Positions 16,112-38,320 of a DNA stretch of 64,000 bases are shown one piece after another. Numbering within the stretch: position 1 is the stretch's first letter; each line of letters starts with the position of its first letter. Where the stretch lies: contig NZ_QEYD01000009.1 in the NCBI RefSeq assembly GCF_003122215.1, positions 62,001 to 126,000 of the forward strand, written 5' to 3'. A program made the position numbers and the translations under genes. The notes under the pieces were generated by a model. The model was not told the origin of the DNA. It was given only the letters and a program-made list of their open reading frames with translations, and made no database searches. The DNA comes from Pararhodobacter marinus (GTDB lineage: Bacteria > Pseudomonadota > Alphaproteobacteria > Rhodobacterales > Rhodobacteraceae).

Positions 16112-16296
16112 GGTTCGGAAAAACACTGCCAACGGGTCGCGGCATCGAAAATCAACTTGGATGCCGCGATCAGCCTTTTATTCTGCCGTTGTCCCGTCCG
16201 ACGGGGCAAGACATTTCACTTTATCATTGGTGCCTTCAGCCGGCACGCTATGACTCTTCCAAAGCGGTTCGGCGGGCAACTCGGGATAAGATTTCC

Positions 16297-17331
16297 ATGC
16301 GTGCAATCGTTCATATCGGTGCCCCGAAAGCCGGCTCTACCGCAATTCAGAGTAACATCCGCGACAACAGGCAGGAGCTGTCGGATCAAGGCTTCTTCTG
16401 TTACTGGCCGTCGCGCGGTCCGAATGATCGAGCGCTTTCAGAACGTTTTGAAGCGGCAAAGGGTCCGAGGCCTCCTCAAGTGCAGCATGCCTTTGAGAAG
16501 ATTCCTGACCCTGTTTCGTGGAGCAACGCCTGCTGGAGAGAACTCGCTGAACAGGTCGCCCGGAGCGACCATGATTTCGCGATCATTTCTAGCGAGCATT
16601 TCTTCAATACGCCTGACCCTAACGGGCTTCTTGATGCCCTGAGCGGGATTTTCGACGATCTAACCCTCGTGGTTTATCTTCGTGACCCCGTGGAGCAATA
16701 CAACTCACACTTGAATCAGCTGATCCGAGGGGGCGCACGGTTTCGCAATCTGAAAACCCCTGTAGCCTACCAATATTATGCATACTCGCATCTGCCGGCG
16801 ATGCTAGAGAAGATCGGTTCCGAAAAGGTTGTGGCGCGGAATTTCAGCCGCAAACACTTGAAGAACGGTGACGTTGCAGATGATTTCTTCGATGTTGTCT
16901 CTTCTATTGCCGATCGTCCTGTTTCAGTGTCGCAAAAAGCGGCTCGCGTGAATGAAAGCCTGTGCGGTGCGGCGACAGTTTGGCTCATGGCGCAGAACGA
17001 AAGTTTTTCCGTTCAGGCGCCGAAACATCTGGAGCTCCGCCGGCAAGTGATCCGGCGTCTGCGCGAGGATCTCGCCCTGAAAGATCTTCCGCCGCTTAAG
17101 CTGGAAGATCCTGCCATGGCGGCTATCCTTCGTTGGAACGCGCGCGAAGCGTGCCAATGGTATAACGACACATTGCTTGGCTCCGATTCTTTGCTTGCTC
17201 TGGAAACGGCAGCTCCGGATGTTCCGGACTACCGAGAAGCGCGTGAGCAAATGCGAGCTTGGATGTTTAGCTACCTGTCGCAGGATGCCTTGGAAAAAGT
17301 CTTGCGCGCTGCGGTTCCTGTAACGGGCTGA
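16297..17331 (+). CDS. Sulfotransferase-like protein, A/T-rich insert
   Basis: 344 residues starting MRAIVHIGAPKAGSTAIQ. The GAPKAGST loop (residues 8-15) is the 5'-PAPS binding loop of sulfotransferases, and LVVYLRDPVEQYNSHL gives the R-x-x-S-like 3'-phosphate site. It is related in layout to the genes at 24370 and 26879. The gene and its upstream region have visibly lower G+C than both neighbours (asd and the glycosyltransferase), pointing to recent acquisition. It presumably transfers sulfate to a sugar of the polysaccharide made by the locus; the acceptor is unknown. The ATG at 16297 is the first that places the PAPS loop at the N-terminus. Confidence 0.8.
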   Translation: MRAIVHIGAPKAGSTAIQSNIRDNRQELSDQGFFCYWPSRGPNDRALSERFEAAKGPRPPQVQHAFEKIPDPVSWSNACWRELAEQVARSDHDFAIISSEHFFNTPDPNGLLDALSGIFDDLTLVVYLRDPVEQYNSHLNQLIRGGARFRNLKTPVAYQYYAYSHLPAMLEKIGSEKVVARNFSRKHLKNGDVADDFFDVVSSIADRPVSVSQKAARVNESLCGAATVWLMAQNESFSVQAPKHLELRRQVIRRLREDLALKDLPPLKLEDPAMAAILRWNAREACQWYNDTLLGSDSLLALETAAPDVPDYREAREQMRAWMFSYLSQDALEKVLRAAVPVTG

Positions 17332-17347
17332 AAGCCGTTACTTCTTG
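17319..17347 (+). terminator. Possible intrinsic terminator
   Basis: GTAACGG (17320-17326) pairs with CCGTTAC (17335-17341) around an 8-base loop and is followed by TTCTTG. It overlaps the stop codon of the A/T-rich sulfotransferase gene and lies in the gap to the convergent gene. The U-tract is interrupted, so it is weak. Confidence 0.45.
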
Positions 17348-17412
17348 TCGCGCCCGTTCTGCTGCTGGATAGCAAAGCAAAAAGCAGTCCGCCCTGGGCC
17401 TAGGTTTCGCGC

Positions 17413-18123
17413 CTATTCCGCAGTCTTCTTCAGGTGCATCAGCTTCCGCGACATGACATTCGACACCAGCTCGGGGTCGTAGTCCTCGCCCAGAAAGGCA
17501 AACAGCGGCTCCAGCTTGCTGTGGTCGCTCGTATAGTCGTTGTAATGGATATGATGGCAACGGTCGGGATTGTTGCGCATGTAGCGATGGAACAGCGCTT
17601 CGGTCGCGGACAGCCGCTTCTTGACCTCGCTGGGGTCCTGCTGTGCCCACCAGCCCGAGCGCACCACCTCGTCCAGATTGCGGGTGTTGAAGACGAACTT
17701 GGCCGGGCTCAGGAAACGGTGCAGGAAATTCAGCGTATTGCTGAGATCCGCGAAGCTGTTGCCCCAGCGGATTTCCTTGAACCCCGTAACCCGGGTGCCG
17801 GCAGGCGGCATCAGGATCTGGTTGCGAAAGGTCCGGGCCAGCGCATCGCCATATCGGCGATGATTGCAGTTCTCGGCCCCGTACCAAGGGTTGTTGGGCT
17901 GTGTCGTCTCACCTGTGCGGGCATGGCTGCGGATGACGTCGTTGTCCCGGACATTGACCCAGGCCTGCGCCAGAGGACCGGCCGCGTTCGCGTTCTCCCC
18001 GCGGATGCAGTACCCGTCGATCGCGTTGAGCAGGTTCTGGACCAGTGTCGATCCCGAACGCCCATAAGTGACCACGAACACATAACCCTTTATGTCGGTG
18101 CTCTGGGCATCGCCTGACGACAT
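17413..18123 (-). CDS. Sulfotransferase-family protein
   Basis: 236 residues. The N-terminal strand-loop-helix FVVTYGRSGSTLVQNLL (about 16-32) is a full 5'-PAPS loop (YGRSGST). FVFNTRNLDEVVRSGWW matches the 3'-phosphate region with an Arg and a Ser after it. It is a different subfamily from the IHIG-type genes at 16297, 24370 and 26879, being closer to the 'YGRSGST' bacterial enzymes. It stands alone on the minus strand, convergent with 16297 and divergent from the glycosyltransferase at 18261 (137-base gap). Likely role: sulfation of a carbohydrate in the polysaccharide pathway; acceptor unknown. Confidence 0.85.
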   Translation of the reverse strand: MSSGDAQSTDIKGYVFVVTYGRSGSTLVQNLLNAIDGYCIRGENANAAGPLAQAWVNVRDNDVIRSHARTGETTQPNNPWYGAENCNHRRYGDALARTFRNQILMPPAGTRVTGFKEIRWGNSFADLSNTLNFLHRFLSPAKFVFNTRNLDEVVRSGWWAQQDPSEVKKRLSATEALFHRYMRNNPDRCHHIHYNDYTSDHSKLEPLFAFLGEDYDPELVSNVMSRKLMHLKKTAE

Positions 18124-18260: not shown

Positions 18261-20054
18261 ATGACGCAGACCGACGAACCGCTCATCTCCGTCATCGTCG
18301 CAGTGCATGACGTGGCCGATCACGTCGGCGCGGCGGTGGCCAGTCTCAGGGCGCAGAGCCTGACCGATTTCGAGGCTCTGATCGTCGATGACGGCTCGAC
18401 CGACGGCTCGGGCACGGTCGCGGCCGAGGCCTGCGCGGGGGATCCGCGTTTTCGCGTGATCCGGCAGGACAACCGGGGTCTGTCGGGCGCGCGCAATACC
18501 GGGCTGGATCAGGCGCGGGGCCGGTTCGTGGCCTTTCTCGACGGCGATGACGCCTATGCGCCGGGCTACCTGTCGGGGCTGCACGGGGCGCTGACGCGGC
18601 AGGGGACCGACTGGGCCGCCTGCGCGATCGAGCTTGCCTATCCCGACGGGACGCGGATCAGCCATCCCGCGCTGCATGCCTCGGAACCGCTGAACGCCGA
18701 ACAGATCCTGCAGCTGGACGATGCGCGCGCGGCCGTGCGGGTGTTTCCCTCGGCCTGGAACAAGCTCTACCGGCGCAGCCTGTTCGACGGGCTGCGCTTT
18801 CCCGAAGGCATCTGGTTCGAGGATCACGAGGTGTTCTGGGAGATGGTCGCCCGCGCGCCCGCGCTCGCCTATACGCCCGAACCGCTGTACCTGCATCGCC
18901 GCGAACGGGCGGGCCAGATCACCGGGCGCGACGACGACCGGGTCTTCGATCAGCTGCGCGTGCTCGACCGGCTGCATCCCCGGCTGACGGCCCTGGCCCA
19001 CGGCAAGGAGGCTTTCGACCGGCTGGCGACCCGGCTGGTCCACGAGCGCGCGGCCGTGCTGGTCGACCGCGCCCGCCGGACCCGGTTCCTGACCGCCACC
19101 TACGCGCTGTTCGACCGTCTGGATGCGCAATGGTCGCCCGACTGGGACCCGGATATCAGCCGCGCGCTGGGCCGGGTGCTGGCCGGCGAAACGCCGCTGA
19201 CGATCCTCGTGCTGGATCCCGATCCGGGCCGGGCGCTGGCGGCGCTCGACCGCACGGCGCAGGGCGATTTCGAGCTTCTGGTCACCGCCGCCGACGCGCC
19301 GGAAACCCTGCCGTCCGGGCAGGTGGTGGAGCGGGTCTCGCCCGAAGGGCTGACGCCGCGGCGGCTGGGCGAGATCGCGCGCGGCGATTGGGTGATCGTG
19401 CTGGCCCCGGGCGAGATCCCCGCGCCGGACGGGCTGAAGCGGCTGCTCAACCTGGCGATGGAAAGCGGTTGCGATCTGGCGATCGGGGCGCTGCTGCGCG
19501 AGCGGCAGGGCTATCACGACGGCTGGACCAATAACGCCGCCCTGGGGTTCGATCCGACCGCCCTGCCTGCGACCGGGGGAAGGATCGCGATGGGCGAGGG
19601 GGCGGTCACCCGGCAATATCCCGCGCTGGGCAACCGGATCCTCCGGCGCGACCTGCTGGCCGCGATGCCCGAGCGCCAGGCGCTTCGCGGCGATCCGCTT
19701 TCGGTTCAGATGATCGTGACCGAACTGGCGCAATCCGCGCGCCATGTCGTCTATACCCGCTACGCGGTCACCTGCATTCCCGATTTCATGGCAGACAGAC
19801 GCGGCCTGTTTGCGCTGCGGCGCGCGGTGGCGCATCTGCCCGAGGCCGGGCTGGCGCCGGGATGGCGCGGACAGGTCTATCTGCGCCTGCTGCGCCTGAC
19901 AGGGCTGCGCGGCGCCTTGCGCTGGGCGCTGGCGGCAGGGCTGGTTCTGCTGTCGGGCTGGGGACCCGGCCATCCGCGTGCACAACCGCATGGTCAGCCC
20001 GACCCCGAGACGCCCGCTCTGGCACGCAGGATGCTGACTCGCGGGCGGCGTTGA
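18261..20054 (+). CDS. Family 2 glycosyltransferase with second, degenerate GT-A-like half
   Basis: 597 residues. The first about 280 residues are a classic GT2 inverting transferase: ISVIVAVHDV, VDDGSTDGS (DDGS at 43-46), RGLSGARNTG and a FLDGDD motif (D94, D96, D97), then WFEDHEVFWEM. From about 310 a second region repeats the layout (TILVLDPDPGRALAALD, then DWVIVLAPGE where FLDGDD would stand) but lacks the acidic metal-binding motif, so it looks like a decayed GT-A domain. A short hydrophobic segment near the C-terminus (WALAAGLVLLSGW) may touch the membrane. It lies 85 bases before the giant galectin-GT gene, in the same direction. Confidence 0.85.
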   Translation: MTQTDEPLISVIVAVHDVADHVGAAVASLRAQSLTDFEALIVDDGSTDGSGTVAAEACAGDPRFRVIRQDNRGLSGARNTGLDQARGRFVAFLDGDDAYAPGYLSGLHGALTRQGTDWAACAIELAYPDGTRISHPALHASEPLNAEQILQLDDARAAVRVFPSAWNKLYRRSLFDGLRFPEGIWFEDHEVFWEMVARAPALAYTPEPLYLHRRERAGQITGRDDDRVFDQLRVLDRLHPRLTALAHGKEAFDRLATRLVHERAAVLVDRARRTRFLTATYALFDRLDAQWSPDWDPDISRALGRVLAGETPLTILVLDPDPGRALAALDRTAQGDFELLVTAADAPETLPSGQVVERVSPEGLTPRRLGEIARGDWVIVLAPGEIPAPDGLKRLLNLAMESGCDLAIGALLRERQGYHDGWTNNAALGFDPTALPATGGRIAMGEGAVTRQYPALGNRILRRDLLAAMPERQALRGDPLSVQMIVTELAQSARHVVYTRYAVTCIPDFMADRRGLFALRRAVAHLPEAGLAPGWRGQVYLRLLRLTGLRGALRWALAAGLVLLSGWGPGHPRAQPHGQPDPETPALARRMLTRGRR

Positions 20055-20139: not shown

Positions 20140-23100
20140 ATGGAGTCCTTTCGTACCGCCCAAGGGGCAAGATTCTGGACTTTGGCCGATTTTTCCGCCG
20201 GCTTCGTCCTGAACCTCGATTTCTATAACGACGCCGAAACCGAGATTCCCTTTCACCTGTCGGTCCGGCGCGATGAGAAGCTGGTCGTGGTGAACCGTAA
20301 GGCGCCCGAGGGCTGGCGCCGCGAGATCCGCTTTCCCATGGAGTTCGAGAACCGGCTCACCCCGGTTCAGATCGTTTTCGCCAATGGCACCGCCGAGGTG
20401 CATGTCGACGAGCGGCGCATCGGGCTGTTCGATTCGCTGCCCCGGCTGGACCTGTCGGGGCGCATGTTGATGCGGCGCGGCTTTCCCCGGCTGGACCAGA
20501 TCGCCAAGGTGAATGTCACGGGCTGGTCGGCCTATGACCGGATGGTTCTGGACACGTCCAGCGACCGCTGGCGCAACGAAACCGGCCTGCACCTGAACGA
20601 TTCGTTCGAAGCGGTGGTGCGGAAGCTTCGGGCCGAACACGCGCGCGACGGGGTGCTGCGGATCGCCGGGATGGAAGAGACGTTCCGCGCCTCGCTGCGC
20701 CTGATCGTCCCTGCGGCCGACCGCGCCCGGGCCGAGTTTGGTATGGTCGCGCTGCCGCCGGGCCGGATCTGGACCGGGGCGGGCGACACGCTCGTGCTGA
20801 CGATGACCACGCGGGATGGCGCCATGCTGGGGCAGATGACTCTGACCCGCGCCGACCTGGCCGCACGGATCAGCGAGCTGGCGCGCGCGGGGGGGCTCGA
20901 TCAGAACGACCGGGCGGCCCTGCAGGCGCTCGAACACGTCAAGTTCGCCGAGATCGGCGACGACCTGTCGCCCGAGGTCTGGGGCGTCCTGTCGAAGGCG
21001 GCCGAGCGGTTCAAGCTGAAGGACTACCTGCCCGAGCGCGCGTCGGCCGGGGCGGCGCCCCTGCGCCCGGCTGTGGCCGAGGATCCCGAGCAGCCGGCGA
21101 TCGAGGCGGTCGAGCGTTTCACCGTCGCCATGCGCGCCGATCCGTTGCGCGACCCGGTGGCGCTGCTTGACGCCGAAATGAAGATTCTTGCGGCTCAGGC
21201 GGCCAATCTGCCGAAGAGCCGCCTGCCTGAGGTGGAGCCTTCCGCCACCGCGGACGGCACGCCCGTCGCCCCGGTGGACATGCTGAAACTGATGTTCCTG
21301 TACCGGCTGATGATCTGGTTCGCGCAGAACGACCGGATGGACGATCTGCTGCGCTACCGGCGCGATGCGGGACTGCCGTACCGACCGCTCGACTGGCCGA
21401 TCAGCTCGGCCCGCTCGCTGATGATCGCGCTCTATTACGGCGAAGGCCGGTTTCAGGAGGCGATGGAGGCCATGCACCAGATCGCCGCGCCGGGCGGCGA
21501 CTGGCTGAACACGCCGGTGATCGCCTGGGTGATGGAACAGGCGGCACGAAGCGCGCCGGCGCTCGATGGCACGCTGCCGCTCGACTGGGTTGCGCGCGAG
21601 ATCCTGGCCGGCGCGCTGAACCTGATCGAATGGCACAGCGGCGATTACTGGAGCCACATGACCTGTCAGCGCCTGATGCGGGCGACCGTGGCGATCCTGT
21701 CGCGCGACAAGGCGCTGCCGCCCGAAGTGCGCGAGCGCGCGATCTGGGTTGCGGGCAAGGTCTATGCGCTCAATCCCGGCTTCTGGGCGATGGTGGACGA
21801 GGCTCAGGCCGCCACCGGCTGGGTTCTGCCCGACAGCCTGCGCGCGATGCGCGAGGTCTTCGAGCCGATCGAGGCCGCGATCCTGAACGGGCCGGTTCTG
21901 TCGATCGCCGATGCCGAGCGGGTCGATCACGCGCTGAACCTGCACCGGCAACTCGGCACCGGCGCGATGGTCCGTTTCCGGCGCGAACTATTCGGGCCGC
22001 TGGGCATTGCCGAGACGGCGATGGGGGGGGCGCTGGCCCCGCTGATGGCGGGCATGGATCCGGCCGAGGGCGCGCTGCGGCTTCTGACCTTCCCGCGCGC
22101 CCGGGTCGACCTGACCGAGGACCAGCGTCAGGAGGCCCTGCGCGGGCTGGAGCGCTGTAACGAACAGCTCGTCGTCCTGCCTTTCGCGGATCAGAACAAT
22201 CATCTGCGCGCCCAGGCCGAGGCCATCCTCGCCGGCGACGCGGACGCCCCGGCGCTGACGCGCTGGCTTGAGGCCCTGCCGCCGATTTCGGGCGCGCAGG
22301 GGCGGTTCGTCGGCATCATGCTGGCCTTTGCCACCGCGCGCGGGCTTCTGGACCGGGGCCGCGCCGACGAAGCCGGGCAGGTGCTGGAACAGGCGCGCCG
22401 CCTTGTCGCGACGCAGCTGTCCGACAGGGTGGCCACCGGGCTGCTCCTGGCCTCGTCGCTGGTCGGAATGTCGTTTCATGCTCTGAACAGGGCGCATGGC
22501 GACAGGCCGGACATCCGCGCGCTTGCCGGTCTTCTGACCCACCGTCTTCCCGCCGCGCCGCTCGAGGCGATCGACGACCGCGCCGCCGACCTGATGCAGG
22601 CGGCCAGCCCGCTTCAGAACACGCTGCTTTGCGTCTATACCTGTCAGCCCAATCTGGACACCCGGGTCCGGATCATGCGCGAGACATGGCTGCCGCTTCT
22701 GAAGGCGATGGGCGTGCCGTTTCTTGTTTTCGTGGGCAATGGCGACGGGCGGCGCGAGGGCGATGTCGTCTATCTCGACGCGCCCGACGATTACGAGGGG
22801 CTGCCGCAAAAGAGCCTCGCGCTGGCGAAATGGGTGCTCGAACACACCAATTTCGCGCATCTGGTCAAGGTCGACGACGATTGCTTCATCGACCCCGAAG
22901 CGTGGTTCGGGGATCTCGCGCATCGGGGCGCCGATTACCATGGCCGGCGGCTGCATCGCTCGCGCGGGCAGGTCGACCGCGCGTGGCATCAGGGCAAGTC
23001 CCGCTCGCAGCGGGGCCGCTTCGAACTGGACAAGTCGCCCGAGCCGTCGACCTATGCCGATGGCGGTACGGGCTATTCGCTGTCGCGCGTGGCGATGGCC

Positions 23101-24345
23101 GCGCTGGTCGAGGCCGCGCAGACGGCCGAGGGGCGCGAGCTGGAGCAATTGTCCTTCATGGAGGACAAGCTGGTCGGCGACCTGCTGAGCCTGCGCAATA
23201 TCGGGCTCGACAATACCGGCTATCATGTCAGCGTCCTGCGCCGCACCGCACCGGGCGGTCCGATCGTGCCACAATGGGTGAACGGCTTCCTGCCGTTCAG
23301 GGGCGCGCGGGTGAAGCTGGCGCATCTGGACGGCGTCGACCGCATGGCCGAGGTACTGGCCGGGATGGATCAGGACCGCCCGCTCGACCGCAAGATCTGG
23401 CCAAGCTATCAGCCGGTTACCTTGGGCTTCAATTCGAACGCGCTGGATCTGGTGTCTTCGCAGGCAAGGCTCGACACTGTGAACGAGGCCGAGGTGGCGG
23501 CGGTCATCTGCCTGCGCAACGAGATGTTCATCCTGCCCGCCTTCCTTGACCATTACCGCAAGCTGGGCGTCGGCGGGTTCCTGATCGCCGATAACGGCTC
23601 GGATGACGGCAGTTTCGAATATCTGGCCGAGCAGCCCGACGTGGCGCTGTTCTCGGTCGATACCGAATACGGCAAGTCGGGCTACGGCGTGGCATGGCAA
23701 CAGGCGCTGATGTCGAATTTCCGTGTCGGGCGCTGGTCGCTGGCCGTCGATGCAGACGAATTCCTGTTCTGGAACCTCGACCGGTCGGGCGATCTGCCGA
23801 CGCTGGTGCAATCGCCCGAATTCGAGGGCGCCGATGCCGCGCGGATCTTCATGCTGGACATGTATCCCGAAGGCTCGCTCTCGACGGCGGATTTCAAGAG
23901 CGGCGATCCCTTCGCGCAGGCCGGCTTCGTCGAGCGCGAGCCGTTTCTCACCGCGTCGATGGCGCTGGGGCCGTTTTCGAACTCGCCCACATGGACCAGC
24001 GCGCTGCGTCACCGGCTTATCCCCGGCTCGCGCAGCGATCTGTTCGTTGCGCAGAAATACGCGCTGTTGCGCTATCGGCCGTGGATGCGGCTGTCGGCGG
24101 GGCTGCATTACGTGTCCGAGACGCGGCTGGCCCGGCGCGAGCTGCTGTTCGCGCATTTCAAGTACAACGCCCATTTCCGCGCCAAGGCGCAGGCCGAGGT
24201 CGCGCGCAGCCAGCATTTCAACAATGCCGAGGAATACCGCAAGTATCTGGCGCTGGTGGGCGAGGGGCGCGACGTGATCCACGATCCCGAAATCTCGGTG
24301 CCGTGGGATCAGGCCGCTTTCGTGCGGCGGGTCTGCGGCGGCTGA
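20140..24345 (+). CDS. Giant galectin-like / GT31-like / GT2-like multidomain glycosyltransferase
   Basis: 1401 residues. N-terminal part (about 10-130): beta-rich with the galectin carbohydrate-binding signature H39-x3-R43 ... N52 ... W59-x2-E62-x-R64; only the Asn two after the His (here S41) differs. Residues about 150-270 form another beta-rich part, 290-830 are mostly helical and unrecognised. Residues about 825-1060 match the GT31 beta-1,3-galactosyltransferase layout: RETW (847-850), DDYEGLPQKSL, KVDDDCF (DDD 912-914), GGTGYSLS (975-982) and MEDKLVG (E1008-D1009). The C-terminal part from about 1115 is a GT2/GT92-like domain: CLRNEMFILPAFLDHY, ADNGSDDGS, VDADEFLFW (D1204, D1206). No signal peptide, so it should act in the cytoplasm on lipid-linked or growing chains. 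Motifs are seen directly; family names are my assignment. AGGG lies upstream of the ATG. Confidence 0.85.
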   Translation: MESFRTAQGARFWTLADFSAGFVLNLDFYNDAETEIPFHLSVRRDEKLVVVNRKAPEGWRREIRFPMEFENRLTPVQIVFANGTAEVHVDERRIGLFDSLPRLDLSGRMLMRRGFPRLDQIAKVNVTGWSAYDRMVLDTSSDRWRNETGLHLNDSFEAVVRKLRAEHARDGVLRIAGMEETFRASLRLIVPAADRARAEFGMVALPPGRIWTGAGDTLVLTMTTRDGAMLGQMTLTRADLAARISELARAGGLDQNDRAALQALEHVKFAEIGDDLSPEVWGVLSKAAERFKLKDYLPERASAGAAPLRPAVAEDPEQPAIEAVERFTVAMRADPLRDPVALLDAEMKILAAQAANLPKSRLPEVEPSATADGTPVAPVDMLKLMFLYRLMIWFAQNDRMDDLLRYRRDAGLPYRPLDWPISSARSLMIALYYGEGRFQEAMEAMHQIAAPGGDWLNTPVIAWVMEQAARSAPALDGTLPLDWVAREILAGALNLIEWHSGDYWSHMTCQRLMRATVAILSRDKALPPEVRERAIWVAGKVYALNPGFWAMVDEAQAATGWVLPDSLRAMREVFEPIEAAILNGPVLSIADAERVDHALNLHRQLGTGAMVRFRRELFGPLGIAETAMGGALAPLMAGMDPAEGALRLLTFPRARVDLTEDQRQEALRGLERCNEQLVVLPFADQNNHLRAQAEAILAGDADAPALTRWLEALPPISGAQGRFVGIMLAFATARGLLDRGRADEAGQVLEQARRLVATQLSDRVATGLLLASSLVGMSFHALNRAHGDRPDIRALAGLLTHRLPAAPLEAIDDRAADLMQAASPLQNTLLCVYTCQPNLDTRVRIMRETWLPLLKAMGVPFLVFVGNGDGRREGDVVYLDAPDDYEGLPQKSLALAKWVLEHTNFAHLVKVDDDCFIDPEAWFGDLAHRGADYHGRRLHRSRGQVDRAWHQGKSRSQRGRFELDKSPEPSTYADGGTGYSLSRVAMAALVEAAQTAEGRELEQLSFMEDKLVGDLLSLRNIGLDNTGYHVSVLRRTAPGGPIVPQWVNGFLPFRGARVKLAHLDGVDRMAEVLAGMDQDRPLDRKIWPSYQPVTLGFNSNALDLVSSQARLDTVNEAEVAAVICLRNEMFILPAFLDHYRKLGVGGFLIADNGSDDGSFEYLAEQPDVALFSVDTEYGKSGYGVAWQQALMSNFRVGRWSLAVDADEFLFWNLDRSGDLPTLVQSPEFEGADAARIFMLDMYPEGSLSTADFKSGDPFAQAGFVEREPFLTASMALGPFSNSPTWTSALRHRLIPGSRSDLFVAQKYALLRYRPWMRLSAGLHYVSETRLARRELLFAHFKYNAHFRAKAQAEVARSQHFNNAEEYRKYLALVGEGRDVIHDPEISVPWDQAAFVRRVCGG

Positions 24346-24369: not shown

Positions 24370-25305
24370 TCAGAACCTGGTGAAAAGCCGCTCGCGGTCG
24401 GGGAAGAACTGCGCGCGCAGGCGCTCGTTGCTCTCGGCATGGGCGGCGCGGATCCGTTCGCGCTGCGCGTCGCTCAGGACCAGTTTCGACCCCGGCTGTT
24501 TCAGCCCGCGCCGCTTCAGCGCCATGACCGCGTGAAACAGCGGGTTCGGCCCGCCGCTTTTCAGCCGCGACGGCGTCCATTTCCCGATCCGGATCGACAG
24601 ATCCACCTCTTCGGCGCTGAGCGACTGGTTCAGATAGGGCGGATCTTCCAGCGGGCCGCGATCGATCCCGGCCACCGCGCAGAAATCATCCAGCAGATCG
24701 CCGTTCTTCATCACGCCCCGGTCGAACAGCCGGACGGTCAGGTTTTCCTGCCCCACGACCGAAGCCCACATGCGCGCGCGGCGGAAGAAATTCATCTTCG
24801 GCAGCATCGTGTCGATATGCTGGTCGAGTGTCTGGAACTCGCCGCGCTTGATCGCCTCGGAATAGGTCGAGAGCATGAACTCGTCCTGCGGGCGGTAATA
24901 GACGATGTAGCGCACGCTGTCGAAATGGCGGTTCAGCGTGTCGTGCAGCGCCTGCATCCGGTCGAGCGTGTGGCACCAGGCATGGATCTGCTCGCTTGAG
25001 GCCAGATAGGTATGCTCGGGCCATGTCCGCACACCCTTGCTCAGCATCGCCTCGAACCGGTCGACATAGGCTTCCTGGCTGGCGCGGCCCTTGACGCCCA
25101 TGGCGTAGAGCTTGTTCGCCGCTTCCAGCTCGCCGCCCGAGCGGATGATGGCGGTCAGGCCCAGCTCCATCTGCGCGGGGTTGCGGGGCGTGAAGGGCTC
25201 GAAACGCAGCCCCTGCGAGGACAGCGCCGGGCGGTTCAGGGCCAGAAACGACTGGATCGTCGTCGTGCCGGTCTTCTGCGTTCCGATGTGAATGACGGCT
25301 TTCAT
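24370..25305 (-). CDS. Sulfotransferase-like protein
   Basis: 311 residues beginning MKAVIHIGTQKTGTTTIQSFL. GTQKTGTT (8-15) is the 5'-PAPS loop. YIVYYRPQDEFMLSTYSEA corresponds to the 3'-phosphate region, with R-P and downstream S. It is the same subfamily as 16297 and 26879 (GNGDLL/GD-type segment NGDLLDDF is shared with 16297's NGDVADDFF). It is the last gene of a minus-strand run kpsE-kpsT-26879-25302-24370; its ATG overlaps the stop of the GT4 gene (ATGA at 25302-25305), so it is co-translated with it. Presumed role: sulfation of the exported polysaccharide. Confidence 0.85.
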   Translation of the reverse strand: MKAVIHIGTQKTGTTTIQSFLALNRPALSSQGLRFEPFTPRNPAQMELGLTAIIRSGGELEAANKLYAMGVKGRASQEAYVDRFEAMLSKGVRTWPEHTYLASSEQIHAWCHTLDRMQALHDTLNRHFDSVRYIVYYRPQDEFMLSTYSEAIKRGEFQTLDQHIDTMLPKMNFFRRARMWASVVGQENLTVRLFDRGVMKNGDLLDDFCAVAGIDRGPLEDPPYLNQSLSAEEVDLSIRIGKWTPSRLKSGGPNPLFHAVMALKRRGLKQPGSKLVLSDAQRERIRAAHAESNERLRAQFFPDRERLFTRF

Positions 25306-26882
25306 GGCGTTTCCCGGTAAATCTGCAGAAGCTCTTCGATATGGGTCTGGACGCTGACGGGCGCGATGGCGTTGGCCCAGTAATTGGCTGGCGTGACGCT
25401 GCCGTCCAGAAGCCGCGACATCACCCTGTGGAAGGCGTCGATGCTGTCGGCGCGGAACACCAGGTCGTTGCAGCGCCCCAGTTCCTGCGCGCCGCCGCGG
25501 TCCGAGGTGATCAGCGGGATGTGGCGCGAATGCATCTCGATGGCGACTTGCGGCAGGTTGTCTTCCCACACCACCGGCACCACGCCCAGATCGACATCGG
25601 ACAGCATGGTCTTCAGGTCGTCATGCGAATAGCCGGCGATATGCGTGACCTCGGCCAGATGCCCACGCAGATCGGCCAGAAGGCCCATCGCCTCGCCGTC
25701 GCCGGGCAGGGCGGCCAGTTTCAGCCGCACGCGCGCGGCCAGTTCGGCGGGCAGGGCGGCAAGCGCGCGCATCAGGAAGTGATAGCCCTTGTCGCGGCGC
25801 ATGTAGCCCAGATAGGCGATCCGCAGCGTGCCGTCTTCGTGCAGAAAGGTGGTGCGCGGGCGGCTGTAGTGCCATTCGCCCGCCTCGGCCGAGCCGATAT
25901 AGCTGGTCTGCAGCTTCGAGGCATGGATCCCGTGATGCAGCGCGATCTGGCGCACCCGGTCGGACACGCACAGCACGCTGTCGCAATGTGCGTTGATCAG
26001 GCTCACGAAGCGCGCGCGGCGTCGGGCGAAAGCCTCGGCCGGGGTGGCGCTGCTGGGCTTGGGATGGGCGCGGCGCTGGTCGTCGCTCGCGGGGGGGATC
26101 ACGGTCGGCACGTTGCCGCCCTGCGCGGCCTGCGCGCTGGCGCTCGCCCCCGCGCCGGCACCAGCGGCGACAAGGCGCACGGGCTCGGCCATCTGGCGGC
26201 GCCGCCGCACGTTCAGGATGCGCCGCAGGCTGCGCCAGGCCAGCCGCATCGCGGGACGGAACACATGGTCGTAAAACCGCGTCCCCGGTCCCAGCCCGGT
26301 CCGGGCGAAGGTCCAGGCGATGGCATAGGCCGTGCGGATCGAGCGCGGCTCGGGCTGGGCGGCAAGACAGCGCGTGCAGCTCGATCCGCCGTGGAAATCG
26401 TCGCAATGCTCGCGCTCGGCATACCACAGGTTCACTTGCGGGCAGAACGGGTAGTAATTGTGCAGGGACAGCACGAATTTCGTCCCGGGCCAGCGCCGTT
26501 TGAGGTTCAGCACATTGGCGGGCAGGCCTTCGAGATTGTTGAAATGGATGACGTCCCACGGGCCGGTGCGATCGACGAAATCGGCAAAGGCCGCTTCGGT
26601 CGCCGGATCGTCAAGCTGCGCGCGTCCGCCGAAATCGGCATGGGACGGGGCGATCAGGCCGGAATTGACCAGCGTGTAGCGCGGGCTCTTGCCACCCTCG
26701 ACGGTGATCACATGCGGCTTGCGGCGCAGGAATTCCTGCGACAGGCCCGAGGACAGAAAGGCGGTTTCGATGTCCTCATGCGCGGCCATCCCGTTGATGA
26801 CATTGCGCTGATAGACGCTGACGCCGCCGCCGCGCCGCTCGCGATCAAGGTAATCGGCCCAGTTGTAATACAGGATTCTCAT
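25302..26882 (-). CDS. Family 4 glycosyltransferase
   Basis: 526 residues, no signal peptide. The N-terminal half holds GGGVSVYQRNVINGM (acceptor-side Gly-rich loop of GT-B enzymes) and KFVLSLHNYYPFCPQ. A CxxC pair lies in GGSSCTRCLAAQ. An Ala/Gly/Gln-rich, probably disordered insert lies near 245-275. The C-terminal half shows LCVSDRVRQIALHHG, IAYLGYMRRDKGYHFL, VWEDNLPQVAIEM (nucleotide-sugar E-x7-E-like region) and LITSDRGGAQEL, as in GT4. It likely adds a sugar during polysaccharide assembly. Both ends overlap their neighbours by four bases (ATGA), showing a tightly coupled operon with the two sulfotransferase genes. Confidence 0.9.
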   Translation of the reverse strand: MRILYYNWADYLDRERRGGGVSVYQRNVINGMAAHEDIETAFLSSGLSQEFLRRKPHVITVEGGKSPRYTLVNSGLIAPSHADFGGRAQLDDPATEAAFADFVDRTGPWDVIHFNNLEGLPANVLNLKRRWPGTKFVLSLHNYYPFCPQVNLWYAEREHCDDFHGGSSCTRCLAAQPEPRSIRTAYAIAWTFARTGLGPGTRFYDHVFRPAMRLAWRSLRRILNVRRRRQMAEPVRLVAAGAGAGASASAQAAQGGNVPTVIPPASDDQRRAHPKPSSATPAEAFARRRARFVSLINAHCDSVLCVSDRVRQIALHHGIHASKLQTSYIGSAEAGEWHYSRPRTTFLHEDGTLRIAYLGYMRRDKGYHFLMRALAALPAELAARVRLKLAALPGDGEAMGLLADLRGHLAEVTHIAGYSHDDLKTMLSDVDLGVVPVVWEDNLPQVAIEMHSRHIPLITSDRGGAQELGRCNDLVFRADSIDAFHRVMSRLLDGSVTPANYWANAIAPVSVQTHIEELLQIYRETP

Positions 26883-28051
26883 TGCGGCTTGTCCTTGCCC
26901 GGAGCCTTGCCCTGCGCCTTGGCCGGAGTCTCGTCCGGCGCCTTGGCCGGGGCCGGGGCCTGCGGCTTGCCCAGCTGATCCTCCAGCGTCTTGATGCGCT
27001 GGGCCTGCGTGGCCAGCCTTTCGCGCAGGCGGGCGATCTCGCTGGACAGGATCGCGAACATCTCGGCGGTTTCGCGCCGCGCCGGGTCCTGCGGGCGGGG
27101 CGGATCGGCGCGCATGGCCGCCAGATCCAGCGCCGCGCCCGGCAGCGCCGCCAGCGTGTCGAGCCCCGTCAACGCGCGGTCGCGGATCTGCTCGAAGGTC
27201 AGCGGCGGGCGCGGTTCGGACCATTGCGGCGCGCGGGTCTCGGCGCCGAGCGCGCTGTCCACATCCTGCATCATCGCCGTCTTGACCCACCGCCGCGCCG
27301 GCACATGCTGCATCCCGCGCTTGATCGGCAGAAGCTTTTCATCGAGCCGGGGATTGGGATCGGCATCGGGCGTTCCCGCACGGGCGGGGAAGGGCTGGCC
27401 GATCGCGTTCAGGAAATCGCGGTACATCGCATCATCGCGGCGCAGCGCCGGCGTGAAGCCCCGCAGGATCACCGCGTCGCGCCCGAAGATGTCGATCCAC
27501 GGCCGCAGCGCCTGCGCGTAATCCCAGTGGATCGGCTCCATCACCTGCTCGACCGTGGTATCGAAGCCGGGCACGTCGAAACCGATCTTGATCAGCTGGT
27601 TGTACCAGCTTTCCAGATGGCTTTGCGGCGCGCGCAGATAGCACACGACGCGAAAGCGCAGCCTGTCGCGCACGGTGTCGATCAGCGCCCGCAGCGCCGC
27701 CTCGGCGCCGGGATGCGCGCCCAGCCGCATGAATTCCTCGCTGCTGACCAGAAGCGACTGCCCGCCCTTCAGCGCCAGCGCCTCGTCGAACAGCGCCTGC
27801 CACATGTCGCGCGCCGGGGCGGGGGGCTGGAAATTGTAGAGCAGCGATTGCACGCCCGCCTCGTGATAGAGGACATGCGCAAGCGGCGAATGCTTGGCCA
27901 GCTTTTCATGCGTCCGGGCGTAAACCAGCCCCTGCCGCGCCAGCTTGCCGCGATTGGCCTGGAAAAAAACCTGAAGCGCCGTCGTCCCGGTCTTGAAGTG
28001 ACCGATATGGAAAATGATTTCCGGCGGCGTCTTGTCGAAGAATCGTACCAA
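26879..28051 (-). CDS. Sulfotransferase-like protein with C-terminal coiled coil
   Basis: 390 residues. HIGHFKTGTTALQVFF (14-29) is the 5'-PAPS loop; RVVCYLRAPQSHLESWYNQ fits the 3'-phosphate site. After about residue 330 a coiled coil (IARLRERLATQAQRIKTLEDQL) leads into a tail made only of Pro, Ala, Lys, Gly, Asp and Gln. The coiled coil could tether the enzyme to a partner in the export complex. The start is TTG: no ATG precedes the PAPS loop, and GGAG stands 7 bases upstream of this TTG. It lies 17 bases after kpsT and overlaps the GT4 gene by four bases. The acceptor is unknown. Confidence 0.82.
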   Translation of the reverse strand: MVRFFDKTPPEIIFHIGHFKTGTTALQVFFQANRGKLARQGLVYARTHEKLAKHSPLAHVLYHEAGVQSLLYNFQPPAPARDMWQALFDEALALKGGQSLLVSSEEFMRLGAHPGAEAALRALIDTVRDRLRFRVVCYLRAPQSHLESWYNQLIKIGFDVPGFDTTVEQVMEPIHWDYAQALRPWIDIFGRDAVILRGFTPALRRDDAMYRDFLNAIGQPFPARAGTPDADPNPRLDEKLLPIKRGMQHVPARRWVKTAMMQDVDSALGAETRAPQWSEPRPPLTFEQIRDRALTGLDTLAALPGAALDLAAMRADPPRPQDPARRETAEMFAILSSEIARLRERLATQAQRIKTLEDQLGKPQAPAPAKAPDETPAKAQGKAPGKDKPQ

Positions 28052-28068: not shown

Positions 28069-28722
28069 TCAGGCGAGCAGTTGCTCGTGGTGTTTGATGG
28101 CTTCGTCGAGATCCTCGAAATACCGCAAACGGCCTTCGTGCAAGACCAGAGCGGAATCGCAGAAGGCGCGCAGTTCGTTGAGGTTGTGATTGACGAGAAT
28201 AGCGCTGGAACGCTGCATCCGGTCCCGGAACAGCAACTGGCTCTTGCGTCGGAAGCGCTGGTCGCCGACCGCGGTCACCTCGTCCACCAGGTAGGTGTCG
28301 AAATGGATCCCCATCGAGATGCCGAAGGTCAGCCGCGAGCGCATCCCCGACGAATAGGTCCGGATCGGCATGTAGAAGTGTTTGCCGATCTCGGCGAAAT
28401 CCTGAACGAAATCGGCCAGTTCCTCGGTGTCGACGCCGTAGACGCGGGCCAGGAAACGGGTGTTCTGCGCGCCGGTCAGGTCGCGGTGGAAACTGCCGCC
28501 GAACCCGACCGGCCAGGAAATCGTGCCGTCGCTGATGATGCGTCCGCGGTCGGGCGCCATGGTGCCCGCGATCAGTTCCAGAAGCGTGGACTTGCCCGCG
28601 CCGTTCCCGCCCAGCAAAGCCATCGACTTGCCGCTGGGCAGGGTCAGGTTCAGGTTGCGGATCACCGGCTGGTATTGCCGGCGGATCCAGAACCCCTTGG
28701 ACAGATTCTCGAACTGGATCAT
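28069..28722 (-). CDS. kpsT: Capsule polysaccharide ABC exporter, ATP-binding subunit (KpsT type)
   Basis: 217 residues, the short length typical of KpsT without a C-terminal sugar-binding domain. Walker A GGNGAGKST (38-46), signature YSSGMRSRL, Walker B TYLVDEVTAVGD and the switch histidine in LVNHNLNEL are all present. It drives export of capsular polysaccharide across the inner membrane together with KpsM. It follows the kpsE-like gene by 13 bases, and the kpsM-like partner is divergent across the short promoter region. Confidence 0.93.
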   Translation of the reverse strand: MIQFENLSKGFWIRRQYQPVIRNLNLTLPSGKSMALLGGNGAGKSTLLELIAGTMAPDRGRIISDGTISWPVGFGGSFHRDLTGAQNTRFLARVYGVDTEELADFVQDFAEIGKHFYMPIRTYSSGMRSRLTFGISMGIHFDTYLVDEVTAVGDQRFRRKSQLLFRDRMQRSSAILVNHNLNELRAFCDSALVLHEGRLRYFEDLDEAIKHHEQLLA

Positions 28723-28735
28723 CGTGCGTCTCGCG

Positions 28736-29989
28736 TCAGCCGCGGTCCCGAAGACTGTAGAAGACCAGCGTAAAGGCCCCCCAGGCCAGAAGCAGGAAGA
28801 ACCCGAAAAGCAGGATCAGGGTGCTGCGCTGGGGATATTCGGCGCGCTGGGCCAGGGTGGGACGGACATAGGTGGCCAGATACAGACTCTGCCGGTCGGC
28901 ATTCGAGCGCGCGACATCCAGTGCTTCCAGCGCGGCGGTATAGGTGCGCTCGGCGAATTCCTGGTTGACCATCAGCGATTCGAACTGCGCGATCAGGCGC
29001 GGATAATCGGTATCGAAGACCGTCACGTCCTGCGTGGCGAAGTTGCGGCGCTCTTCCGAGATCCGCTCGCGGATCACCTCGATCCGGCGCTCGGCCTGAC
29101 GCACGCGGGGATCGTTCTCGGCCGTGGTCTGCAGCAGCAGGTCGTATTCGACCAGCGATTCAGCCAGCGTGGTTTGCAGCCCGTTGATCACGCCCATTCG
29201 GCCGGCGATATCGGCTTGCGGATCGACGATCTGGGTCCGGGCGCGGAAGCTGGCCAACTCTTCACGCGCGGTGCGCAGCCGCTCGAGCGCGTTTTCCAGA
29301 TCCTGCTGCGCATTGGCGATGCTGTCGCGGCGCGACTGGGCGTTGAGCGCGTTGATCATCGCTTCGCTCTCGGCGACGATCTCTTCGGCGACCTGCTGGG
29401 CGAACTCGGCGGTGTTGGCGCGCACTTGGACGTCCATCAGCCCCGAGCTCTGGTCATAAGAGACGATGACGACGCGTTCCCAGAACGACATCAGGTCTTC
29501 GACCGTGGCGTCAGGCCAGATCGAGAAGACCGGGTCGATGCTCCAGTTCTGCGAGTAATGCGCGCGGATATCCAGTGCTTCCTGCGCCCGTTCGACCATC
29601 TGCTGGCTATGGATGAAGGCATAGAGAACATCGGTATTCGACGACGAGCTGCCGCCGACGATGGAGCTAAGCCCGCCCACCAGTTCCGAAGCCGAGCTCG
29701 TTTCGTCGCTGCGCACGGTGAACCCGGTATTCGAGGCATACTGGTCCTGCGCGAAGACATAGAGGTAGGTCGCGATGATCAGAAGCGGCGCGAAGACGAT
29801 CACGACCAGCGACAGGAACAGCGCGCTGTGCCGGCGGCGGATCGTGGCGCGTCCGACGACCGGCCGCACCATCGCATCCTCCGTGCCCCCGCCGGCTTGC
29901 TGGGCGCGGCGTGCGGCGCGTCTTTGGCCTCTCTGCTCGGCGTCAGAGCTCCCGTTCGGCCGTTGCTGGCCGGGATTGTTGGTGCCCAC
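28736..29989 (-). CDS. kpsE: Capsule export inner-membrane protein (KpsE/Wzz-like)
   Basis: 417 residues with the usual two-helix topology: a polar N-terminus (about 1-55, Gln/Arg/Gly-rich), a membrane helix LFLSLVVIVFAPLLIIATYL, a long periplasmic coiled-coil part (about 185-330, with many Ala/Glu/Arg heptads) and a C-terminal membrane helix (LILLFGFFLLLAWGAFTLVF). KpsE bridges the inner-membrane ABC exporter to the outer-membrane channel KpsD. I start at GTG 29989, which has GGAG 6 bases upstream; a TTG at 30001 in the same frame would add four residues. First gene of the minus-strand operon. Confidence 0.9.
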   Translation of the reverse strand: MGTNNPGQQRPNGSSDAEQRGQRRAARRAQQAGGGTEDAMVRPVVGRATIRRRHSALFLSLVVIVFAPLLIIATYLYVFAQDQYASNTGFTVRSDETSSASELVGGLSSIVGGSSSSNTDVLYAFIHSQQMVERAQEALDIRAHYSQNWSIDPVFSIWPDATVEDLMSFWERVVIVSYDQSSGLMDVQVRANTAEFAQQVAEEIVAESEAMINALNAQSRRDSIANAQQDLENALERLRTAREELASFRARTQIVDPQADIAGRMGVINGLQTTLAESLVEYDLLLQTTAENDPRVRQAERRIEVIRERISEERRNFATQDVTVFDTDYPRLIAQFESLMVNQEFAERTYTAALEALDVARSNADRQSLYLATYVRPTLAQRAEYPQRSTLILLFGFFLLLAWGAFTLVFYSLRDRG

Positions 29990-30006
29990 GGAGCGCTCCA
30001 AGTGTT

Positions 30007-30070: not shown

Positions 30071-30898
30071 ATGAGCGCTGGGTCGTACCCGGATTTGCCT
30101 GCTGCGCCGCCGGCGCCGCTGAAGCAGCACCGCCAATCCTATCACGACGCGCGCGTGCTCCTGGCCTTGGTCATGCGCGAGGTGACGACCCGTTTCGGTC
30201 GCACGCCGGGCGGGTTCATCTGGGCGATCATGCAGCCCTTGGGGCAGATCATCATCCTGGGCTTCGCCTTTTCGCTGATCGCCCGAAACCCGGCGCTGGG
30301 CACCAGCTTTCTGTTGTTCAAAGCCACCGGGATCCTGGTGTTTCAGGCGTTCAAGACCACCTCGAACATGATTGGCAAGTCGCTGAGCTATTCCAACAAG
30401 CTGCTGTCCTATCCGGGGGTTGAGTGGCCGCACGCCTTGCTGGCGCGGTTCATCCTGAACATCTTCGTGAACCTGGTGGTCAGCATCCTGATCTTGAGCG
30501 GGATCATCATCGCCGAGAACCTGACCCTGATCATGGACTGGAAGCCGGTCTTCCTGGCCTATTGCCTGGCGTGGATCCTGTCCTTCGGCATCGGAGCGCT
30601 GAACTGCTACCTGTTCGAACGCGTCGATATCTGGTCGAATGTCTGGGGCATCATGACCGGCCCGCTGATGATCGTGTCGGGGGTTATCATCCTGTACGAG
30701 GATCTGCCGCCCGTCGCGCAGGAAATCCTGTGGTACAACCCGCTTTTGCATATCACCGGCCTGATGCGCGAAGGGTTCTATTCGACCTACACGCCCGGCT
30801 ATATCTCGATCCCGTTCGTGCTGGCCTGCGGGATGATCCCGATGGTGCTGGGGCTGATGCTGGTGCGCAAGCATCACCTGTACCTGCTCAACCGCTGA
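30071..30898 (+). CDS. kpsM: Capsule polysaccharide ABC exporter, permease subunit (KpsM type)
   Basis: 275 residues with six membrane helices and the ABC-2 permease layout: an amphipathic N-terminus with REVTTRFGRTPGGFIWAI (typical of KpsM/TagG), and a last helix ending VRKHHLYLLNR. It forms the membrane channel for the capsule polymer with KpsT. AAAGGA lies 9 bases before the ATG. It is transcribed away from kpsE-kpsT, an unusual split of the exporter. A 13-base sequence covering the stop (CGCTGACCCGTGG) is directly repeated one base later. Confidence 0.93.
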   Translation: MSAGSYPDLPAAPPAPLKQHRQSYHDARVLLALVMREVTTRFGRTPGGFIWAIMQPLGQIIILGFAFSLIARNPALGTSFLLFKATGILVFQAFKTTSNMIGKSLSYSNKLLSYPGVEWPHALLARFILNIFVNLVVSILILSGIIIAENLTLIMDWKPVFLAYCLAWILSFGIGALNCYLFERVDIWSNVWGIMTGPLMIVSGVIILYEDLPPVAQEILWYNPLLHITGLMREGFYSTYTPGYISIPFVLACGMIPMVLGLMLVRKHHLYLLNR

Positions 30899-30930: not shown

Positions 30931-31974
30931 TTAGCCTTCCGTGCCGGGCTTCTGCTTGCGGCCCTCTGCGCGGCGCAGGATCTCGTCATGCGACCGCTCG
31001 GTGCGCCGGCGCAGGCCATCGGCGACCGCAAGCCCGAAAAGCCGAAGGAACGTCCCGCGCTCGCCCCTGTGGTGGCGCAGCCTGAAGAGCCAGCGCGGCA
31101 GGTAGAGCAGCAGCACCGGACCAAAGAAGAGACCGGTGGCGATGCGGTACAGGATCAGCAGGTTGCGGTGGTAGTAATAGACTTTCCACAGCGGCCGGAT
31201 GCGTGGATCGGCGCTGGAATAGGTGCTGCTGTCATGCTCGAAGCGGACCGAGGGATCGAAGCCGATCGCGTGGCCCGCCTTGGTCAGGCCCATCGTGTAG
31301 ATCGCGTCGTCGCCATAAAGAAACAGCGCCGGATCGGGATAGCCGCGCTGGCGTACCGTGCGGGCGCGGACAAAGAAGCCGACGAAGGACGCGCCATCGA
31401 CCCGGCGCAGGCCCGGGATCTCGAAATCCTCGGGCCCCAGATGGAAGGCGCCGCGGCCTCCGCCAAGCAGGGTGCGGGCAAGGATCGTCTTGTGCCAGAA
31501 CGGGTTGAAGGTCGGGCGGTTCATCTCGCACAGGGTGCCGTCGGGATGGCGTACGGCGGCGGCGAAACCGTCGAACCCGGTCAGGTCCAGCGCCTGAAAA
31601 GCGGCGAAGGCGCCCGGTTCGGGCCGCGCGTCGTCATCCATGACGACGATCCAGTCGGGTGACAGATGCTCGACGGCGTGGCGCATCCCGGCCTCGAAGC
31701 CGCCCGCGCCGCCGCGGTTTTCGGGCAGGGTCAGGGTGATCAGCCGCGCATCGCTTTGCCCGGCCAGCCATTCCGCCGTCCCGTCCTGCGAGGCGTTGTC
31801 GACGACCAGCACGGCGGACAGGTCGCGCGTGGGTTGGTCCAGAAGCGCCTGCAGCGTCACTCTGAGCTGATCGAGCCGCTGATAGGTCACGACCACCGCG
31901 ACGAGCCGCCCGTTCGGACCCACCGCGACCGCGTCGGAAAGAGATGTCGTGCCCGCAGGTTCTGTCTTCGTCAC
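30931..31974 (-). CDS. Family 2 glycosyltransferase, galactofuranosyltransferase (GlfT2)-like
   Basis: 347 residues. GT2 motifs: VAVVVTYQRLDQLR, VVDNASQDGT, GGAGGFEAGM, then the metal site VVMDDDARPEPGAF. The acceptor-side segment FLYGDDAIYTMGLTKAGH followed by VRFEHDSS is the W/Y-D-D-x-E/I-Y layout of the rhamnosyl/galactofuranosyl subgroup (COG1216). The presence of a UDP-galactopyranose mutase gene 5 kb away supports a galactofuranosyltransferase role; this part is inference. The C-terminal amphipathic and hydrophobic stretch (FFGPVLLLYLPRWLF) suggests membrane association. The start is GTG with a poor ribosome site. Convergent with kpsM. Confidence 0.82.
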   Translation of the reverse strand: MTKTEPAGTTSLSDAVAVGPNGRLVAVVVTYQRLDQLRVTLQALLDQPTRDLSAVLVVDNASQDGTAEWLAGQSDARLITLTLPENRGGAGGFEAGMRHAVEHLSPDWIVVMDDDARPEPGAFAAFQALDLTGFDGFAAAVRHPDGTLCEMNRPTFNPFWHKTILARTLLGGGRGAFHLGPEDFEIPGLRRVDGASFVGFFVRARTVRQRGYPDPALFLYGDDAIYTMGLTKAGHAIGFDPSVRFEHDSSTYSSADPRIRPLWKVYYYHRNLLILYRIATGLFFGPVLLLYLPRWLFRLRHHRGERGTFLRLFGLAVADGLRRRTERSHDEILRRAEGRKQKPGTEG

Positions 31975-32184
31975 GCGTCGTCTGCCCGCTGCTGGCCCTC
32001 GGGGCCCGATTTCGGCGCAGAGCTAGGCGGGGCGGCGGAGTTTGTCAAACGCCAAGCGATGCGGCCATTCGTATGGGCGTTCCGTAAAATCCAAGCTGTT
32101 TGCCTCATTCTTGCCGCATTCGGGCGCCTGCAACCGCCACGCCGTCGGGCGATGACGGAAGCAGGCGTTGCAAAGGGTTCGGCC

Positions 32185-36961: not shown

Positions 36962-38320
<1,359 letters not shown>

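Follow-up and report, generated by a model that had tools for sequence, protein, structure and literature searches.

In a 64,000-nucleotide stretch of the Pararhodobacter marinus genome (contig NZ_QEYD01000009.1, positions 62,001 to 126,000; hereafter the window), an uninterrupted reading frame at 20140-24345 on the forward strand encodes a protein of 1401 residues in which a galectin domain is joined to two glycosyltransferase (GT) domains. PF00337 (galectin), PF01762 (GT31) and PF13704 (GT2) follow one another along the protein, all with scores above the curated Pfam cut-offs. We consider that the protein is probably (roughly 0.6) a cytoplasmic multi-domain polymerase of a galactose-containing and probably sulfated surface polysaccharide, whose galectin domain would hold the acceptor chain. 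In teaching, galectins count as lectins of eukaryotes; in this bacterial family, which spans over 100 loci, one with an intact predicted sugar site forms part of a putative polysaccharide-making enzyme. An earlier note on this DNA had proposed the galectin, GT31 and GT2/GT92-like assignments, and profile searches, residue conservation and predicted folds all bore them out. It had also taken the protein to be singular, which the size of the family contradicts. Literature searches, confined to openly licensed papers, returned no description of a bacterial galectin-bearing glycosyltransferase.

The galectin domain and its sugar site

The PF00337 model matched the whole protein with 24.3 bits and its N-terminal piece with 29.3 bits (cut-off 22.1), and 53 of 61 relatives matched it at E <= 0.1, the best at 8e-10. 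When a profile made from 61 relatives was searched against the PDB, the top 60 matches were galectins, including such a domain from a viral fibre, and the best (E 1.6e-17) was a galectin from Toxascaris leonina. The AF2 model of residues 1-345 had a predicted local distance difference test score (pLDDT) of 88.7, above 90 for most of residues 11-130, and its N-terminal domain displayed the galectin beta-sandwich. The best Foldseek matches of this domain were all galectins. VIA-align 2 superposed it on galectins with Z scores of 16.0-15.0 and root-mean-square deviations (rmsd) of 2.0-2.5 over 121-129 residues, the top match having a Z score of 16.0 and an rmsd of 2.0 over 125 residues. The best PDB match in both profile and fold, Tl-gal of T. 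leonina (4hl0), has H-x-S-x-R, V-x-N and W-x-x-E in its first domain; unlike the bacterial protein, this nematode tandem-repeat lectin has no enzyme domain.

The sugar-site motifs of the protein are H39-L-S41-V-R43, V50-V-N52 and W59-x-x-E62-x-R64. Among 82 aligned galectin domains, W59 and N52 were present in all, H39, S41 and E62 in 79, and R43 in 78. No other column of the domain is as well conserved as these six, and the mean column identity is 44%. If columns were independent, the probability of six of the seven named positions taking the top six of 140 columns would be ~1e-9, but that assumption does not hold, and the alignment is itself partly guided by the motif; the rank order is the safer statement. 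Five of the contact residues pointed out earlier (H39, R43, N52, W59 and E62) thus hold across the family at 78-82 of 82, whereas the sixth, R64, does not: because that position is Arg in just 12 of the 82 domains, its match in the 1401-residue protein is, judged from the alignment, a coincidence. The Ser two residues after the His, described in the earlier note in place of the canonical Asn of HxNPR, is there and is family-wide (79/82), a fixed trait and not a local defect. Neither that Asn nor the Arg of WxxExR is a feature of the family; both letters are usual, not universal, in galectins. Since the Toxascaris galectin likewise has HxSxR in its first domain, we did not take the Ser and the variable R64 to exclude homology, and on homology we assign the domain to the galectins. 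A chance match was ruled out by the conservation across all 82 sequences.

Compared with the closest relative (84% identical), the ratio of nonsynonymous to synonymous substitution rates (dN/dS) was 0.113 for the galectin domain, 0.100 for GT31, 0.118 for GT2, as against 0.30 in the two intervening regions. The galectin domain is under purifying selection as strong as that on the catalytic domains. Site conservation and dN/dS together lend good, indirect support to the prediction that the site still binds sugar. Because the sugar-binding residues are nearly unchanged across about 80 relatives, the galectin probably grips the growing sugar chain.

The catalytic domains and their known counterparts

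PF01762 (Galactosyl_T) scored 33.5 bits with the whole protein and 37.3 bits with the corresponding piece (cut-off 23), and was present in 50 of 50 relatives. The motifs RETW, DDYEGLPQKSL, VDDDCF, GGTGYSLS and MEDKLVG occur as they had been described and follow the family pattern RxTW, Y-x-x-L-x-x-K, DDD, GxGY and ED-x-x-x-G. DDD and ED were invariant in the 50 relatives (columns D98-D100, E194, D195 and G199 of the fragment). A GT31 profile searched against the PDB found B3GALT6 (4e-9) and B3GALT5 (9e-6) as the only sequences under E 0.01. The AF2 model of residues 815-1401 had a pLDDT of 90.0 and a predicted template modelling score (pTM) of 0.85, and placed the motifs within a GT-A fold of the GT31 type, with Z scores in VIA of 20.7 to B3GALT5 and 19.5 to B3GALT6; the GT31 structures listed spanned 20.7-16.8, after which scores dropped to 13. 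The two human enzymes, which share the DDD and ED motifs, are thereby the closest solved relatives of this part, at about 19-23% identity in the structural alignment; they differ in being single-domain animal Golgi enzymes. The linkage expected from the GT31 domain is beta-1,3, with UDP-galactose as the probable donor.

The C-terminal domain matched PF13704 with 82.4 bits (cut-off 27.5), as did all of 50 relatives, and carries the motifs RNEMF...HYR and DADEF, the latter within the VDADEF noted before. Its predicted fold is nearest to GalS1 of Populus (Z 13.0 in VIA), a GT92 beta-1,4-galactan synthase with a CBM95 module, which resembles the bacterial protein in this fold and in the principle of an attached binding module (PMC11062476). 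The binding modules differ, and the bacterial domain falls in PF13704; the GT92 family PF01697 was found in only one of the 50 relatives (E 0.009). Taken as a tandem pair, the two GT-A domains had the chondroitin synthase CHSY3-CHPF as top Foldseek matches (E 2.5e-13). These enzymes likewise carry another GT-A domain after GT31 on a single chain; they have no galectin, and a different setting of the domains makes the rmsd over both large. The second domain of CHSY belongs to GT7, in place of the GT2/GT92-like domain of the bacterial protein.

No Pfam match was obtained in the second beta domain (beta2; residues 145-345). Residues 346-815 appear helical by eye, their sole Pfam signal being the weak one listed in Table 1. 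An NCBIfam scan of the 1401-residue protein assigned no family name. The host genome holds a single full-length copy and two stand-alone relatives of the C-terminal domain.

The galectin domain of the plant GALT galactosyltransferases lies on the N-terminal side of GT31, in the same order as in the bacterial protein. GALT1-GALT6 combine PF00337 and PF01762 in one protein, as the bacterial family does (PMC4687291). The plant enzymes have a single catalytic domain, are shorter than 700 residues and belong to the type II proteins of the Golgi, whereas the bacterial protein has about 675 residues between galectin and GT31 and an additional GT2/GT92-like domain, and its gene lies among bacterial polysaccharide genes. 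It shows no apparent membrane segment at the N terminus, and its layout is not that of a single-enzyme type II membrane protein of the plant type. What the galectin domain does on the plant GT31 enzymes has been stated as an open question (PMC4687291), for which the bacterial protein, together with mutable strains, would provide an experimentally easy system.

Distribution and origin of the family

Relatives were found at 110 loci in a genome collection, 80 of which were kept for analysis; 78 non-redundant relatives were full-length, and the galectin alignment comprised 82 sequences. Judged by their labels, nearly all are Rhodobacterales of the marine type, and several of the closest named ones are Pararhodobacter. 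Full-length relatives were present in most sampled genomes of this genus and in some other genera of its family, and were plasmid-borne in Thalassococcus, Tropicibacter, Palleronia and Sulfitobacter. Two outliers bear labels from outside the order, Methylobacterium sp. Leaf118 and Bordetella petrii BT. Galectin, beta2, middle region, GT31 and GT2 follow one another in 77 of the 78 full-length members. The galectin domain being present in 77 of 78, a one-off assembly artefact was ruled out.

PF00337 and PF01762 each matched in 2 of 398 Pseudomonadota genomes; the two genomes coincided, as did the open reading frames (ORFs). A more sensitive profile, built from galectins of the family, matched in 15 of 293 genomes of the order (Rhodobacterales) and in one of 289 genomes from the class; every matching ORF was 1360-2085 residues long. 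On these sampled genomes we rejected the idea of galectin as a general bacterial domain; within them, galectin and GT31 domains are found only in this fusion.

Galectins are known mainly from animals, fungi and plants, and both the galectin and the GT31 families are common in eukaryotes. Because both domains occur only in this fusion within the sampled genomes, their distribution points to acquisition from outside, the source probably being eukaryotic. We regard as tentative a more extended scenario, in which the galectin-GT31 pair was taken from a eukaryote into a cytoplasmic Rhodobacterales polymerase, and the galectin truly binds beta-galactosides and holds a growing sulfated galactan for attachment and biofilm formation. 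If that were so, the same role would explain the galectin domain of plant GALTs.

The polysaccharide locus and the proposed function

KpsM-, KpsT- and KpsE-like genes are all present at the locus (PF01061, PF00005 and TIGR01010), giving export genes of the group 2 type (KpsMTE). KpsC or KpsS Kdo-linker enzymes were not seen among the scanned ORFs of the window, a genome-wide search for them not having been made. The glf gene encodes the sole UDP-galactopyranose mutase found in a profile search of the genome, and a UDP-GlcNAc 4,6-dehydratase-like gene is also at the locus. In 55 longer related loci, the neighbours included genes for GT4 (38 loci), sulfotransferase (33), KpsT (27), glf (22) and rmlB (12). 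In 27 of the 78 relatives the GT2 encoded upstream forms the N-terminal part of a fusion with the galectin protein, and where the two are separate it lies directly upstream of the gene in at least 30 of 50 cases; the GT31-GT2 tree requires at least four fusion or fission changes for it.

We propose that the two tandem GT-A domains would add alternating sugars, at least one polymerisation step adding or extending galactose. The N-terminal galectin would bind one beta-galactoside of the chain as it grows, keeping the acceptor near both active sites, with the upstream GT2 working in the same assembly. The product would be sulfated and then exported by the adjacent KpsM/T/E-type ATP-binding cassette (ABC) exporter. 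A bifunctional polymerase had been predicted in the earlier note, an idea with which both the arrangement of GT-A domains in tandem and the polysaccharide-export locus agree. Polymerases that carry several GTs on one chain are established for ABC-dependent O antigens: among the polymerases of such O antigens and capsules, WbdA, WbbB and ORF6 of Klebsiella O7 each hold several GT modules in one cytoplasmic polypeptide beside an ABC exporter, although none is described with GT31 or galectin domains (PMC11231755). GalS1 is the precedent for a galactan synthase that carries a module for sugar binding (PMC11062476).

Several observations weigh against this proposal. The NCBIfam matches for KpsT, KpsE, KpsM and GlfT1 all lie under the curated cut-offs, those of the KpsT-like ATPase being best to TagH, galactan Wzt and VexC. 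In the Natronohydrobacter branch of the family there are no exporter genes nearby, so that the link to such a locus is not universal; a sulfotransferase gene was the only constant neighbour found there. The exception to the common layout, in Pararhodobacter sp. SW119 (L018/L117), is without the galectin. Finally, with Ser for Asn and a non-conserved Arg in ExR, affinity or specificity may differ from those of classical galectins.

Another function for the galectin would be to gauge the finished chain or hand it to the exporter, much as a chain-length control part or the carbohydrate-binding module (CBM) of Wzt does. In its favour, 27 of 55 loci have exporter genes close by, the KpsT-like ATPase here has just 217 residues and lacks an extra C-terminal module, and in ABC-dependent systems Wzt sugar-binding modules are export checkpoints, while the O7 terminator has a CBM-like fold with no assigned role (PMC11231755). 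We nevertheless think such a role unlikely, as the galectin is covalently joined to a glycosyltransferase, not to a transporter or a coiled-coil terminator, and is retained in the branch that has no exporter genes nearby. Still less probable is an enzyme that transfers sugar to a protein or a lipid instead of polymerising a polysaccharide. GALT1-GALT6, with both Pfam domains, do act on proteins or N-glycans (PMC4687291), but the present locus, with its exporter, several GTs, glf and sulfotransferases, is of the polysaccharide export type, and no candidate acceptor protein appeared as a constant neighbour, though no systematic search for one was made. Equally improbable is a structural relic that no longer binds sugar: the Ser and the variable R64 could be read in this way, and some galectins, galectin-13 among them, are reported to have lost lactose binding (PMC6294630), but the sugar-contact residues top the conservation in 82 sequences, dN/dS is low, and H-x-S-x-R is shared with the first domain of the best PDB relative, the Toxascaris galectin.

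Table 1. Features of the galectin-glycosyltransferase gene and its surroundings (positions in the window)
Feature	Positions	Strand	Basis or remark
Sulfotransferase-like ORF, HIGAPKAGSTAIQ P-loop	16345..17331	+	Motif; no Pfam match
Sulfotransferase	17413..18123	-	PF13469, 45.0 bits
GT2 glycosyltransferase, 597 residues, upstream of galectin gene	18261..20054	+	PF00535, 125.8 bits
Gene for galectin - beta2 domain - middle region - GT31 - GT2/GT92-like protein, 1401 residues	20140..24345	+	Translation, Pfam and relatives
Galectin domain, residues 1-140	20140..20559	+	PF00337, PDB profile matches, AF2 fold
Second beta domain (beta2) and short helices, residues 145-345	20572..21174	+	AF2 strands 150-236; family-conserved
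Middle region, residues 346-815	21175..22584	+	TPR_4 weak match, 15.4 bits, below cut-off
GT31 domain with DDD and ED motifs, residues 816-1100	22585..23439	+	PF01762; B3GALT5/B3GALT6 fold
GT2/GT92-like domain with DADE(F/L), residues 1115-1401	23482..24342	+	PF13704; GalS1 fold
Sulfotransferase-like ORF, HIGTQKTGTTTIQ	24370..25293	-	Motif; no Pfam match
GT4 glycosyltransferase	25302..26906	-	Commonest neighbour, 38/55 loci
Sulfotransferase-like ORF, HIGHFKTGTTALQ	26879..28051	-	Motif; no Pfam match
KpsT/Wzt-like polysaccharide ABC exporter ATPase	28069..28722	-	PF00005
KpsE/BexC/CtrB-like polysaccharide export protein	28736..30001	-	TIGR01010, 235.8 bits, E 7e-70; below curated cut-off 437.5
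KpsM-like ABC-2 exporter permease	30071..30898	+	PF01061, 63 bits; NF050053 KpsM, E 3e-20, below cut-off
GT2 enzyme, nearest NCBIfam galactofuranosyltransferase GlfT1	30931..31974	-	NF050113, 68.8 bits, E 4.5e-19; below cut-off 330
UDP-galactopyranose mutase (glf)	36962..38113	-	PF03275, 258.8 bits

The three sulfotransferase-like ORFs at 16345-17331, 24370-25293 and 26879-28051, which match no Pfam model, have the P-loop motifs GAPKAGST, GTQKTGTT and GHFKTGTT, respectively. G+C content is 57% at the start of the locus (16001-18000) and 62-74% elsewhere in the window. Inside the polysaccharide locus, 31666-34815 encodes a large repeat protein with many GGxGxDxx calcium-binding repeats; RTX-type genes like it are also near relatives on Thalassococcus and Sulfitobacter plasmids. 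Five loci (L033-L037) place the galectin gene on Roseobacteraceae plasmids of 50-125 kb together with rml, glf, gmd or kds genes, and some of these plasmids resemble the biofilm plasmids described for Roseobacteraceae. Related genes are found on rml-bearing roseobacter plasmids, a plasmid type linked to biofilm formation (PMC13386836).

Among the relatives, those labelled Methylobacterium sp. Leaf118 (L087) and Bordetella petrii BT (L083) branch together outside most Rhodobacterales, through transfer or mislabelling. The SW119 sequences (L018:772-5010 and the ORF from 7487 of L117) keep beta2, GT31 and GT2, and an N terminus reading GKIEGWVIDSD... replaces the galectin. At about 1619-2146 on the reverse strand of a Gemmobacter nectariphilus locus (L061), a stand-alone ORF of 176 codons matches the galectin profile weakly (29 bits) and has VLN and WGAEE motifs without HxSxR; it may be a galectin-like protein in free form, encoded close to the fused gene.

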